NCBI GenBank assembly: GCA_944324315.1
Contig: CALUVW010000001.1
Location: 1-64,000 of the forward strand
DNA from: Candidatus Gastranaerophilales bacterium
GTDB taxonomy: Bacteria; Cyanobacteriota; Vampirovibrionia; Gastranaerophilales; Gastranaerophilaceae
Length of the DNA stretch: 64,000 bases
Reading direction: 5' to 3'
The position numbers and the translations under genes were made by a program. Shown here piece by piece: positions 14,012-47,029 of the stretch. The notes under the pieces were generated by a model. It was not told the origin of the DNA. It saw nothing but the letters and a program-made list of their open reading frames with translations, and made no database searches. The stretch's first letter is position 1. Each line of letters starts with the position of its first letter.

Positions 14012-14997
14012 CTAAAAGACATAAAAAGCATGTTATAAAAAAAGAATCAGTTATGGCAAAAATCAAAAACTGGACAATATCAATACTTCTTGCTGGATTA
14101 ATGCTTCTCGGGCTTCAATGCTACAGTACAAGTGCTACAGGTTTAAAATTTGCCCAGGTAAGCGATGTTCATTATTATACAGGCACTAATAACACAACTT
14201 ACAAAATGATAGCCGAATCCCCGAGACTTCTTGATGATGCTATTGAACAAATAAATGCAACCCCGAATGTCTCTTTCGTAATGTTTACGGGAGATTTAAT
14301 TGACAAACCGTTTGAAAAAGAATTGAGCGCATTTTTACCACATACACAAAAACTTAATGCACCATGGTATTTTGCATTTGGTAACCACGATACAATGATG
14401 GGAGGTTATTTAACCCCATCTGTTTATATGCAGCTTGTCAATAAATATAATAAAAATTACAAATTTGAAAAAAGCTATTATTCTTTCATCCCGCAAAAAG
14501 GCTTTAAAGTTATAGTACTTGATACAATAATCCGTGACAGACTGACATCTAACGGACGACTTGGTGATAAACAGCTTGAATGGCTGGATAATGAACTTAA
14601 AAATTCTAAAAAGGATACCATTTTGATATTTATGCATGTACCTGTTTTAGAACCCTATGTAAGCCCGAATCACAGACTGCTTGACGCGGATAAAATGGAA
14701 GATATTCTGTCAAAATATAAAAATCCTATAGGCATTTTTCAAGGACATTATCATGGAGCAAAAATTACGCAGAAAGGCAATATCTTATATGTAAGCTGCC
14801 CTGCACTGGTTTCATATCCTAATGCATTCAGAATGGTTACTGTAACCAACTACAGAAACAAAGTCGTTTTTAATATTGAAAATAAAGAAACAGGATTAAA
14901 AAACATTCAAAAGCTTGCCAAACTGCTCGTTTTTGGAACAAGCGTATATACAGGAACAGAAAATGATCAAAATGCAACAATTACCATAAAAAAATAG
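14008..14997 (+). CDS. Membrane-anchored or exported metallophosphoesterase
   Basis: The calcineurin-like core is complete: SDVHYYTG, FTGDLID, FGNHD, MHVPV and GHYHG supply the two-metal site. A basic N-terminus and a hydrophobic segment at about residues 23-45 indicate export or membrane anchoring. The start is either the coupled ATG at 14008 or ATG 14053 (MAKIKNW), which gives a tidier signal peptide. It should hydrolyse phosphomono- or diesters outside the cytoplasm. Tandem repeats begin immediately after its stop. Confidence 0.85.
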   Translation: MTKRHKKHVIKKESVMAKIKNWTISILLAGLMLLGLQCYSTSATGLKFAQVSDVHYYTGTNNTTYKMIAESPRLLDDAIEQINATPNVSFVMFTGDLIDKPFEKELSAFLPHTQKLNAPWYFAFGNHDTMMGGYLTPSVYMQLVNKYNKNYKFEKSYYSFIPQKGFKVIVLDTIIRDRLTSNGRLGDKQLEWLDNELKNSKKDTILIFMHVPVLEPYVSPNHRLLDADKMEDILSKYKNPIGIFQGHYHGAKITQKGNILYVSCPALVSYPNAFRMVTVTNYRNKVVFNIENKETGLKNIQKLAKLLVFGTSVYTGTENDQNATITIKK

Positions 14998-15200
14998 GAG
15001 CGTGCCGCTCCACCCATAACACAGGCTTTGCATAAAACTTATAAAGTCTAAACTAAAGAAGAGCGTGCCGCTCCACCCATAACACAGGCTTTGCATAAAA
15101 CTTATAAAGTCTAAACTAAAGAAGAGCGTACCGTTCCATCCATAACTCAGACTTTGTATAAAACCAATAAAGCCCAAACTAAAGAAGAGCGTGCCGCTCC
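14998..15200 (+). repeat. 63-bp direct tandem repeat, three copies plus a 14-bp start of a fourth
   Basis: Units start at 14998, 15061, 15124 and 15187. Copies 1 and 2 are essentially identical, copy 3 is diverged. Each begins with a small hairpin GAGCG-TGC-CGCTC; in copy 3 it is GAGCG-TAC-CGTTC, which still pairs as RNA on the plus strand through a G-U pair. There are no spacers, so this is not CRISPR. A 102-codon repetitive minus-strand frame (14896-15204) is a by-product of the 63-bp period. Confidence 0.85.
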
Positions 15201-15266
15201 ACAAACTTACAAAGAGCTAATGCTAAATAAAATCTGTATAATAAAAATTAAAGAAGGATAAAAAAC

Positions 15267-16199
15267 ATGAGCGAATTTAACGTAAAATTTAGAGGTGTAA
15301 GAGGAAGCTATCCGATAGCAAACAAAGATTTTTTGCAGTACGGCGGAAATACTTCCTGCGTAGAGGTTAATGTTAACGGACATCTTATAATCCTTGATGC
15401 CGGAACAGGTTTGATAGAAGTCGGCAACAGACTTATGAAAGATTATATTTCCTCAGGACTTAATGCTTCAGAAAGAACTCCAATAAGAGCAACTGTTCTT
15501 ATTTCGCATATACATCAGGATCACCTTCAAGGTTTTACGTTCTTTAGACCTCTGCATATCCCGTCATCTTGTATAAATGTATTCGGTAATGTAAATTACA
15601 ATGAAAGTTTGTCTGATGAACTCGCAGAACTTCTGTTCGGCAAATCATTCCCCCTTGATTTAGGCGATATTGCAGGAAATTTGAATATCAGAGATATTTC
15701 TGAAACCGAAGGAATTATCCTCCGGCACGGAGAAGATCCGATTATTAAAAGAATAGAAAATGAAAATGACGCAAAAGTAGAAAATGACGATGTATTAATC
15801 ACCTGCTACCGCTCTTATGCACACCCGCAGGAAGGAGTTCTTGTTTATAAAATTTCTTATAAAGATAAAACTCTTGTTTATGCAACAGACAAAGAAAGCT
15901 ATGCAGGCGGAGATAAAAAATTAGTTAATTTTGCACGCGGCTGTAATCTTTTAATCCACGATTCGCAGTATACTACAGAAGACTATATGGACTCTTTCAA
16001 TCCAAAACAGGGTTACGGGCATTCAACATTTGATATGGCAGTTGAGGCAAAAAACCAATCAGGTGCGGAAAAACTTGTATTTTTCCACTATGATCCGGGT
16101 TATGATGATAACAAACTCAACAGTATAAAAGAACAATTTAATCAGACTAAAGAAAATACTATTCTTGCATACGAAGGTTTGGAAATTGATTTATTATAA
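15267..16199 (+). CDS. MBL-fold metallo-hydrolase
   Basis: The 310-residue protein has the metallo-beta-lactamase signature HIHQDH near residue 83 with later metal ligands HDSQY and GHST. It opens with FRGVRGSYP, as in the PhnP/class III phosphodiesterase-like group. It is cytoplasmic and probably a phosphodiesterase or hydrolase; the substrate is unknown. GAAGGA precedes the ATG. The TPR lipoprotein-like gene follows 13 bases later. Confidence 0.85.
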   Translation: MSEFNVKFRGVRGSYPIANKDFLQYGGNTSCVEVNVNGHLIILDAGTGLIEVGNRLMKDYISSGLNASERTPIRATVLISHIHQDHLQGFTFFRPLHIPSSCINVFGNVNYNESLSDELAELLFGKSFPLDLGDIAGNLNIRDISETEGIILRHGEDPIIKRIENENDAKVENDDVLITCYRSYAHPQEGVLVYKISYKDKTLVYATDKESYAGGDKKLVNFARGCNLLIHDSQYTTEDYMDSFNPKQGYGHSTFDMAVEAKNQSGAEKLVFFHYDPGYDDNKLNSIKEQFNQTKENTILAYEGLEIDLL

Positions 16200-17105: not shown

Positions 17106-18344
17106 TTATATTCTCAAATATTTCAAGTGGTTGATTTCATCATCTTTTGTCATATTCGGATTTTTAAGTTTTTGTTTCAGAACTTCATCAAAGATTTCCT
17201 GATATTTCGGGGACGGATTTATACCGAGTTTTTGAAGATCATCACCATTTATTGAAATTTTTATTTTTCTCAAATCGTCAAGATAATGCCTTGCCCCCTG
17301 CTCGTCTTTTAAAATTCCGTAAAGCAAAACTGTTTCAATGCGGGCATTTTCAAAAGCTTTATATAATTCAAAATCGTCGTTTAATTTTTCTTCCGGCACA
17401 TCATCAAGAATTTTTTGTTCGATTTTTGTCAGAGGCATACGCGACAAATCCCTGAGAACTCCAACATAAATCAGCCAAATATTTTCAGGTTCATATTTAT
17501 TAATTAACTTTTCAATATTAACAGAAGGCAGCTCAACCTCATTTGGAGTTACCAGTTTATAAATTTTTTCATTTATAAATTTTTCAAAGGCAAGCTGATA
17601 CCTATCCCCTCTCTCTTTGGGAGAGGGTAGAATTTCGCCTTTGTCAGAATGAGAAAGGCTGAAATTCGGGTGAGGGTTAAACGTTTCAATAAGTTCTTTT
17701 TTAACCCTTTTATAGCTCATATCATAGTTAATATTTGCAAGGTAATCTTCCTGAAGTTTCCTTGTATGTTCATCAAGGTCAAATCCAAAACGTACCGAAA
17801 ATTTAAGCGCTCTGATAATTCTTGTCGGGTCGTCAATAAAACTTTCGTCGTGCAAAACACGGAGTTTTTTAGTTTTCAAATCTTCAAGACCGCCTGTGTA
17901 ATCAACAATTTCACCGGTTGTAACAGATTTTGCCAGTGCATTTATTGTAAAATCGCGCCTCATGACATCTTCTTTTAAGGTACATCCGATTTTTTCAACA
18001 ACAGGTAAATGTCCTTTGCGCGGATAGCTTTCCGAACGCGTTGATGCAAAATCAACAATAAACTCCTCCCTCTCCAATGGAGAGGGTTGAATTTCGTCTT
18101 TATCAGAATGAGAAAGACTGAAATTCGGGAGAGGGTCAATACCGTACTCTTTAATCTTAACCCTTACCGTCCCAAAATCAGGGTTTACCTGAATAACTTC
18201 GCCAAACTTTGAGCAGTATTCTATTGCATTGCCGACATAAGTAATATCAATATCAAAAGACTCACGCCCCAAAAGTTCATCGCGGACAACTCCGCCTATG
18301 AAAAACAGTTTGTTTGAAGTATCCTTTATATTGATGATGTTCAT
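17106..18344 (-). CDS. CCA-adding tRNA nucleotidyltransferase / poly(A) polymerase family, with two in-frame repeat insertions
   Basis: The nucleotidyltransferase head is clear: FFIGGVVRDELLGRESFDIDI gives the GG and DxD motifs, and then DVMRRDFTINALA, DYTGGLEDL and DPTRIIRALKF follow. It adds CCA to tRNA 3' ends, needed here because the tRNA lacks encoded CCA. Two related peptides interrupt the family sequence at about residues 70-92 and 223-246, both containing PNFSLSHSDK and PSP-ER. They are translations of palindromic repeats at 18068-18136 and 17606-17677. TAAAAT lies 7 bases before the chosen ATG with no SD; an ATG at 18353 and a longer upstream frame are less likely. No HD domain is seen. 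Confidence 0.88.
   Translation of the reverse strand: MNIINIKDTSNKLFFIGGVVRDELLGRESFDIDITYVGNAIEYCSKFGEVIQVNPDFGTVRVKIKEYGIDPLPNFSLSHSDKDEIQPSPLEREEFIVDFASTRSESYPRKGHLPVVEKIGCTLKEDVMRRDFTINALAKSVTTGEIVDYTGGLEDLKTKKLRVLHDESFIDDPTRIIRALKFSVRFGFDLDEHTRKLQEDYLANINYDMSYKRVKKELIETFNPHPNFSLSHSDKGEILPSPKERGDRYQLAFEKFINEKIYKLVTPNEVELPSVNIEKLINKYEPENIWLIYVGVLRDLSRMPLTKIEQKILDDVPEEKLNDDFELYKAFENARIETVLLYGILKDEQGARHYLDDLRKIKISINGDDLQKLGINPSPKYQEIFDEVLKQKLKNPNMTKDDEINHLKYLRI
17606..17677 (-). repeat. Palindromic element A, in frame inside the CCA enzyme gene
   Basis: The 72-bp element has an outer hairpin (CCCTCTC...GAGAGGG) and a second stem in which GAATTTC pairs with GAAATTC and GCCTTT with AAAGGC. 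Its end is GGGTGAGGGT. The length is a multiple of three and the host frame stays open. Confidence 0.8.
18068..18136 (-). repeat. Palindromic element B, in frame inside the CCA enzyme gene
   Basis: This 69-bp relative of element A has CCCTCTCC-AAT-GGAGAGGG and a second stem pairing GTCTTT with AAAGAC, a compensatory change from GCCTTT/AAAGGC. It is in the same orientation and the same translation frame as element A. Confidence 0.8.
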
Positions 18345-18351
18345 GTAAAGC

Positions 18352-18357
18352 ATTTTA
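18352..18357 (-). promoter_or_regulatory. -10 box of the CCA enzyme gene, leaderless spacing
   Basis: TAAAAT on the minus strand ends 7 bases before the ATG at 18344; a 4/6 match to TTGACA (TTTACT) lies 17 bases further upstream. Confidence 0.45.
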
Positions 18358-18381
18358 GCGTAAAATGTAAGAATAGTAAAT

Positions 18382-18441
18382 AAGTGAAGTGTGAAGCTTG
18401 AAGAGTGAGACACTTCACTGTTCACATTTCACTCTTCACTT
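18382..18441. repeat. Dispersed GAAGTGTGAAG-type palindromic repeat, copy 1
   Basis: AAGTGAAGTGTGAAG runs into a loop and then CACATTTCACTCTTCACTT, an imperfect palindrome between the divergent CCA enzyme and helicase genes. A second copy lies at 23798-23860. Confidence 0.65.
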
Positions 18442-46522: not shown

Positions 46523-46568
46523 AACCCTCACCCACCCTTCGGGCACCCTCTCCCAAAGGGAGAGGGGC
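46523..46568 (-). repeat. Palindromic element D (ACCCTCACCC / CCCTCTCCC family)
   Basis: ACCCTCACCC, then ACCCTCTCCC-AAA-GGGAGAGGG, in the inverse orientation to element C. It belongs to the same family as the two elements inside the CCA gene but has a shorter middle. It abuts the end of the DUF559 gene. Confidence 0.75.
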
Positions 46569-46925
46569 TTACAACTCATTGTATTTTTGTAAAATAACCT
46601 CTAATACAGTATTGATATTTTTTATAACATCATTATCAAAAAATCTTATAACTGTATAGTCAATACTATTTAAGTATTTAGTGCGTTCTTCATCATAGTG
46701 AAAATTATCAATATGTTGAGAGCCATCTAATTCAATGACTAATTTTTTTTGCATATTTGCAAAATCAACAATATACTTACCAATAGGTACCTGACGTTTA
46801 AATTTGATATTATTTAACTTTCTATTGCGGATATTAAACCATAAAATATTTTCTGCATTAGTTTGATTTTTCCGCAAATCCACCGCATAATTTAGAGCTT
46901 TTCTAGTATAATGCCTATTTTTCAT
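46569..46925 (-). CDS. DUF559 (Vsr-like endonuclease fold) protein
   Basis: The 118-residue protein has the DUF559 pattern: LRKNQTNAENILWFNIRNRK, KFKRQVPIGKYIVDF, VIELDGSQH and YTVIRFFDNDV. The family has a PD-(D/E)XK/Vsr-like nuclease fold, with the acidic residues Asp, Glu and Asp in place. TATAAT lies 6 bases before the ATG with no SD. The gene lies between palindromic elements D and C, which point in opposite directions. Confidence 0.88.
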   Translation of the reverse strand: MKNRHYTRKALNYAVDLRKNQTNAENILWFNIRNRKLNNIKFKRQVPIGKYIVDFANMQKKLVIELDGSQHIDNFHYDEERTKYLNSIDYTVIRFFDNDVIKNINTVLEVILQKYNEL

Positions 46926-46931
46926 AAATTA

Positions 46932-46937
46932 ATTATA
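46932..46937 (-). promoter_or_regulatory. -10 box of the DUF559 gene, leaderless spacing
   Basis: TATAAT on the minus strand ends 6 bases before the ATG at 46925. Confidence 0.5.
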
Positions 46938-46959
46938 GAATAAAAAATCAAATAATATC

Positions 46960-47029
46960 CCCTCTCCCTATGGGAGAGGGTTGAATTTCAATACGAGCGC
47001 AGGCGAGTATTAGAAATTCGGGTGAGGGT
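46960..47029 (+). repeat. Palindromic element C
   Basis: CCCTCTCCC-TAT-GGGAGAGGG is followed by TTGAATTTC, an inner ATACGAGCG...CGAGTAT stem, and GAAATTCGGGTGAGGGT. The same ends as elements A and B, with a different inner hairpin. It lies between the DUF559 gene and the pgk terminator. Confidence 0.8.

Follow-up and report, generated by a model that had tools for sequence, protein, structure and literature searches.

The two palindromic repeats that interrupt a tRNA nucleotidyltransferase gene in a Gastranaerophilales genome are probably solo terminal units of a small selfish element. The autonomous form of this element is a DUF559 nuclease gene placed between two such palindromes, and the nuclease is the probable mobilizer of the units. 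The interrupted gene and one whole copy of the element lie in the same 64,000-nucleotide stretch of DNA, which we refer to as the window. The genome from which this DNA comes (G000) measures 1.88 Mb in 49 contigs, and the relatives with which it was compared are Gastranaerophilales MAGs.

Two palindromic units lie in frame in a tRNA nucleotidyltransferase gene

The host gene is listed as an open reading frame at 17106-18425 on the minus strand, and its probable start is the ATG at 18344 (MNIINIK; Table 1). In a profile search its product matched PF01743 (PolyA_pol) with E = 1.8e-24, while its best solved relatives are the Aquifex structures 4wbz and 1vfg (E <= 1.4e-36). We found 69 homologous loci for this enzyme. 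The genome also contains a second, distant and weaker tRNA nucleotidyltransferase-like frame (466 aa; G000:C2:17497-17841). Since the best solved match is Aquifex 1vfg/4wbz and a second, weaker homologue is present in the genome, sequence comparison suggests that the window enzyme, labeled CCA-adding in the initial annotation, may be A-adding instead. The tRNA-Glu gene within the window encodes no CCA and the enzyme is therefore presumably needed by the cell.

Two in-frame palindromic inserts of 69-72 bp, encoding near-identical peptides, had been described in this gene from the sequence alone. An unprompted repeat search paired 17605-17680 with 18064-18139 (84% identity over 76 nt), and folding and covariation bore out the description; the covariance model placed the unit lengths at 69 bp (site 1) and 71 bp (site 2). 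The encoded peptides, PNFSLSHSDKGEILPSPKERG and PNFSLSHSDKDEIQPSPLER, are both part of one minus-strand ORF. Site 1 (residues ~70-92, between VRVKI and VDFASTR) falls in the head domain, at a turn that joins two strands, and site 2 is a linker between two helices (residues ~224-246, between IETFN and AFEKF). In an AlphaFold model of the enzyme, pLDDT was below 50 only at residues 67-90 and 227-242, which correspond to the two inserts. The inserts are accordingly predicted by this model to be disordered.

Read on the coding strand, a unit has an outer arm (CCCTCACCC or CCCTCTCCC), an inner hairpin (GAATTTC-A-GCCTTT..AAAGGC-GAAATTC) and a second hairpin (CCCTCTCCC-loop-GGGAGAGGG). Single-strand folding of the two units gave z = -6.4 and -5.2, and none of 200 shuffles folded as well. 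The compensatory change that had been pointed out in the stems, GCCTTT/AAAGGC versus GTCTTT/AAAGAC, is present. Across eight copies, changes on both sides were seen in 5 of the 13 pairs of the inner helix while 96.3% of cells were paired, which 0 of 500 shuffles matched.

Table 1. Positions of the host gene, its two inserts and the DUF559 element in the window
Feature	Position	Strand	Basis
Class-II tRNA nucleotidyltransferase (CCA- or A-adding) gene, holds both inserts	17106..18344	-	PF01743, Aquifex matches
Family-1 palindromic unit, site 2 insert	17607..17677	-	Covariance model R1, 97 bits; empty site in relatives IETFNLNSQ
Family-1 palindromic unit, site 1 insert	18068..18136	-	Covariance model R1, 80.9 bits; site empty in most homologues
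Whole DUF559 element, 506 bp, between pgk terminator and NAD-dependent epimerase gene	46524..47029	.	Sequence
End unit A, shorter, inverted relative to unit B	46524..46566	+	Covariance model R1, 35 bits
DUF559 (PF04480) Vsr/EDxHD-type endonuclease gene, 118 aa	46569..46925	-	PF04480, E 4.7e-38; ORF
End unit B, family-1 type as in tRNA enzyme	46960..47029	-	Covariance model R1, 81.5 bits

In relatives the two sites are empty or hold the same or other repeats

We aligned the window protein with 61 other Gastranaerophilales homologues. Both sites were empty in about 50 of the 61, where the consensus reads VRVNVGGREVDFASTR at site 1 and IETFNLNSQ.AFEKF at site 2, so the check for clean insertion that the initial annotation had proposed came out in its favor. 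Family-1 units occupy these sites in the near relatives L020, L021, L022, L023, L024, L028, and L077. Several repeat families have entered the same loops: SPLIRPSGTFSRIGEK is found at site 1 in L021, L024, and L027; PSSAFQAPSPTIGEKG at site 2 in L022, L025, L051, and L061; and a third family, CHSEALAEESHDCKILRSAQDD, at site 2 in L028. In other relatives, two or three further sites within the gene are occupied by repeats, and in L072 a DUF559 gene precedes the tRNA enzyme as an in-frame fusion. No target-site duplication was evident at the inserts in the tRNA-enzyme gene.

In a gene tree built from the tRNA-enzyme gene minus its inserts, the empty genes L026 and L027 were nested within filled clades, and L022, which carries a different family at site 2, was the sister of the window gene. 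L022 is also a mosaic, with 94-98% identity to L020 around site 1 and 100% identity to the window gene after site 2. This mosaic may be taken as a sign of recombination between species with filled alleles. On the basis of the nested empty genes, the exchanged family in L022, and its mosaic sequence, these repeats have probably been inserted as well as replaced, and filled alleles have probably recombined.

Related units interrupt other genes and lie between genes

Searching the source genome with the covariance model returned 15 matches at E <= 0.1, nine of which had E < 2e-5. Two of these nine are the inserts in the tRNA enzyme, two are the ends of the DUF559 element, three are intergenic, and one each is found in a dihydrolipoamide dehydrogenase-like (Lpd) gene and in QueA. 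The Lpd and QueA copies are in frame; both genes were identified via solved relatives. The initial annotation had also called for a search for further copies and had set the insertion reading against one of ancient conserved segments with no related intergenic copies. Our observations do not agree with the latter.

At the QueA site, eight genomes have a unit of this family in one orientation and four (G006, G009, G027, and G031) have it in the reverse one. The unit is always in frame in the loci L324/L347-L361, its orientation being one or the other by species. About half of the genus is without these repeats at this site, and several such genes have short extensions of other kinds. Another repeat family occupies the site in G002, and an eroded copy is found in G013, a genome without DUF559.

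PriA provides a further site, directly before Walker A, which is uninterrupted in about a dozen genomes and holds assorted other inserts in further ones. PriA of the source genome (L211, G000:C3) has a short in-frame scar here, CTCTCACCATACCCCTCT (GLNLSPYPS), and this scar matches the left end of the DUF559 element present in PriA of G017 and G029.

More than 100 matches to the element model were found in G031. Many of them fall in prepilin-like ORFs, within long N-terminal extensions (FTLAEVLITLGIIGVVAALT; L239-L248) that are built from several repeat families. The prepilin-like copies, whose coding status is uncertain, were left out of the evidence.

The same palindromes cap a DUF559 nuclease gene

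In relatives, several strong covariance matches occur as inverted pairs about 0.5 kb apart, and such pairs enclose an ORF of about 120 aa that belongs to DUF559 (PF04480). The source genome has an element of the same form in the window, 29 kb from the tRNA-enzyme inserts, and its nuclease gene is the single DUF559 gene found genome-wide. The element ends in perfect 10-bp terminal inverted repeats (TIRs), ACCCTCACCC and GGGTGAGGGT; end unit A reads CCCTCACCC-ACCCTTCGGGC-ACCCTCTCCCAAAGGGAGAGGG.

We compared the pgk-epimerase spacer among genomes. It is empty in G008, G012, G013, and G025, and nuclease-filled in G000, G005, and G019, as well as in G007, where the right end is different. In G009 and G006 the nuclease gene has been deleted and the left and right ends are fused at the common CCCTCTCCC-AAA-GGGAGAGGG hairpin, leaving a compact form of the element. 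TTTTTTTG, a poly-T, low-complexity sequence, flanks the element on both sides at this locus, compared to one copy in the empty loci. The spacers L297 and L302 (from G029 and G016) contain a different widespread repeat, GTCATCCTGAACTTGTTTCAGGATCT.., within the loop of the pgk rho-independent terminator, the stem of which is intact.

Whole palindrome-DUF559-palindrome units also reside in frame within protein genes. We found them in PriA of G029, G017, G025, and G004 and of three genomes from other genera, in each case just before Walker A, and also within an M14 peptidase, with another one fused to the beginning of IspE. As for inteins, the PriA, M14, and IspE fusions have no Hint domain and consist of just DUF559 and the host domains. 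Rfam searches at gathering scores detected no group I or group II introns in the window or in nine loci.

Nuclease and palindromes occur together across genomes

We scored 33 genomes of the genus for strong DUF559 matches (E < 1e-20) and for repeat richness (at least three model matches). Strong DUF559 was present in 17 of the 33, and these are exactly the genomes with at least three model matches; the other 16 have 0-2. On the tree, DUF559 and repeat richness shift together. There are three (strongly supported) to five independent contrasts and 3/3 agree (p = 0.25), so the co-occurrence is a strong agreement without being a significant test, because the contrasts number just three to five.

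The flanks of DUF559 genes were then scored for repeats, with a score of at least 40 as the threshold and shifted positions as controls. Among 27 DUF559 loci of the genus, 14 had inverted and 12 had direct flanking units, compared to 0 of 206 shifted controls. In a phylum-wide sample the flanks were inverted at 13 of 22 loci and direct at 8 of 22 (controls, 1 of 328). For other phyla the sample consisted of named plasmid records. Paired flanks were also found at the DUF559 genes of Deinococcus proteolyticus, Sphingomonas parapaucimobilis, Pseudanabaena, Picosynechococcus, and Azospirillum lipoferum. The DUF559 loci of Shinella, A. brasilense, and E. coli have one-sided units, and paired flanks were not found there by score. 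A CACCCTCACCCCAACCCTCTCCCTGAAAGGGCGAGGG unit adjoins the E. coli gene (L318).

The DUF559 tree groups the nucleases that have family-1 flanks in one clade (SH-aLRT 89) and the PriA-resident nucleases, from four genera, in another (SH-aLRT 97). No DUF559 partner was identified for the F2/F3 repeats or the CHSE..QDD repeats, which also entered the tRNA-enzyme gene.

DUF559 resembles a homing endonuclease

Residues E25, D54, E65, D67, and H71 of DUF559 were invariant in an alignment of 20 members. The DUF559 profile matched the homing endonuclease I-Bth0305I (3r3p) with E = 4.3e-5, and a structural model compared by Foldseek matched the same protein (E = 3.8e-4, TM 0.64-0.75). In both fold and profile the protein also resembles 3hrl, which is a DUF559 protein of Neisseria. 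A PADLOC search returned no defense-system match for the window nuclease.

EDxHD is a recognized family of homing endonucleases (PMC3943268), and a DUF559 gene of Thermosynechococcus is assigned to it in another report (PMC9403480). With regard to EDxHD homing, we observed residence at the same site and a mosaic allele. We did not find a link between DUF559 and palindromic repeats in the literature searched, a partial selection that covered few subscription journals.

A model for the spread of the units, and its alternatives

Each unit is composed of the outer arm CCCTCACCC, an inner hairpin that varies, and the second hairpin CCCTCTCCC-loop-GGGAGAGGG. We infer that the DUF559 nuclease moves such units by cutting DNA at or near the target, or at the hairpin ends; repair of the break would then copy the whole element, or a lone end unit, into the cut. 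Copies that are in frame, stop-free, and within a surface loop would be translated as floppy peptides and tolerated, and would therefore persist inside essential genes. Internal deletion generates compact forms, as in the fused ends of G009 and G006. Once the nuclease is lost, solo units would decay, as the eroded QueA copy of G013 may illustrate.

Another possibility is that the palindromes moved by other means, such as hairpin-driven template switching or a different enzyme, and that the DUF559 genes are passengers that use palindromes as landing pads. The units on either side of the nuclease gene are direct copies at many DUF559 loci, an arrangement that a simple TIR transposon does not predict; palindrome families without a known DUF559 link sit in the same loops (the CHSE..QDD type, at site 2 of L028); and IS elements are described as inserting into REP sequences (PMC1525189). 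However, a nuclease gene landing in a unit should split it, and instead complete units cap both sides of the gene with the TIRs outermost. The nuclease clade tracks the palindrome family, and the presence of both agrees genome by genome, which is likewise at odds with a passenger. We consider this explanation unlikely, and it is the direct flanks at many loci and the families without a known nuclease that keep us from placing it lower.

The remaining alternatives fare worse. It could be speculated that the inserts have been co-opted and that their peptides or mRNA hairpins regulate the tRNA enzyme, given their persistence in an enzyme on which this genome presumably depends (the window tRNA-Glu gene being without CCA). 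This is improbable, as the insert varies freely in family and sequence among near relatives, some of which have none, and the inserts are predicted to be disordered. REP-like elements of the kind that a RAYT/Y1 tyrosine transposase moves in enterobacteria and pseudomonads would also be short, with solo or paired copies and no clear target duplication. Y1_Tnp (PF01797), however, is present in just 6 of the 33 genomes and absent from the copy-rich G031, G025, G004, and G002; its absence from G000 as well largely refutes mobilization by RAYT, which we exclude as very improbable. Finally, the two inserts of the window are more alike mutually than either is to most other copies, as would be expected if they were lineage-specific loops that arose by local duplication within the tRNA enzyme, their similarity to repeats being a by-product. 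This account has the least to recommend it and is refuted by the unit copies found elsewhere: related units lie outside the gene and in other genes, and relatives have unrelated repeat families in these loops.

Movement of the units by the DUF559 nuclease therefore remains our preferred explanation. We offer a wider proposal more tentatively, and we do not lean towards it as we do towards the reading of the two inserts: palindrome-capped DUF559 genes may constitute an unrecognized class of mobile elements that crosses phyla, the solo ends of which could be the source of many bacterial CCCTC..GAGGG repeats. Such elements would reside in frame in essential genes with or without the nuclease and would turn over at the same loops as copies are inserted, internally deleted, and replaced.

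Relation to known elements

The best-known coding palindromic repeats are those of Rickettsia and Wolbachia. We know of no identified mover of the Rickettsia coding palindromes. In the literature searched, no mobilizing enzyme was named for those of either genus. Rickettsial palindromic elements (RPEs) are in frame, belong to several families, and differ in family at one site by species (PMC10969869, PMC3767692). The tRNA ribosyltransferase-isomerase QueA is among the host genes listed in the RPE table (PMC3767692).

The initial annotation had cited RPEs as the precedent and had regarded the window repeats as an independent case, and the resemblance holds in detail. Like RPEs and the related Wolbachia elements, the Gastranaerophilales repeats are short palindromes of several families that lie in frame within housekeeping genes and also between genes. 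Different families occupy one site in different species, and QueA is a host gene in both groups. On the other hand, they occur in another phylum (Cyanobacteriota, Gastranaerophilales), their units measure 69-71 bp compared to 100-150 bp for RPEs, and they share their ends with a nuclease gene. By analogy, they are an independent case that is RPE-like in behavior, and we claim no descent from RPEs. Because a nuclease gene is capped by the same palindromes, the analogy with RPEs becomes a testable mechanism. The palindromes cap a small nuclease gene both here in the window and throughout the phylum, which reduces their mode of movement to a question about a single protein. If the wider proposal is true, a similar enzyme may lie behind the coding palindromes of Rickettsia.

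REP/REPIN sequences and RAYTs offer a second parallel, in that the solo units are akin to the ends of a small element carrying a gene and decay after loss of the enzyme. Here, in contrast, the enzyme is a DUF559 nuclease of the PD-(D/E)XK type and not a tyrosine transposase, and many copies are intragenic. The likeness to MITEs lies in short non-autonomous elements with TIRs and an autonomous relative: the DUF559 element has 10-bp TIRs, fused forms occur in G009 and G006, and the solo units share end unit B. The differences from MITEs are that there is no clear target-site duplication and that the relative encodes a nuclease instead of a DDE transposase.

The nuclease fold is shared with I-Bth0305I and the EDxHD family. 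As with EDxHD elements and ShiLan, essential genes are occupied at conserved sites and no splicing is involved; ShiLan itself sets a precedent for an in-frame homing insert that does not splice (PMC11855218). Unlike these, the elements described here are bounded by palindromic units that also spread alone. The HNH frame of ShiLan is out of frame, whereas here the nuclease is in frame with the host gene. Through the proposed element, selfish DNA could extend essential proteins by peptides or by an entire nuclease domain, with no splicing involved. The element also suggests a likely biological role for DUF559, a widespread nuclease family of 'unknown function'.

A further set of repeats lies elsewhere in the window. 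At 14992-15202 a 63-bp repeat occurs three times in tandem, every copy containing an inverted motif like GAGCGTGCCGCTC, and the array is located upstream of a metallo-hydrolase-like gene at 15267.
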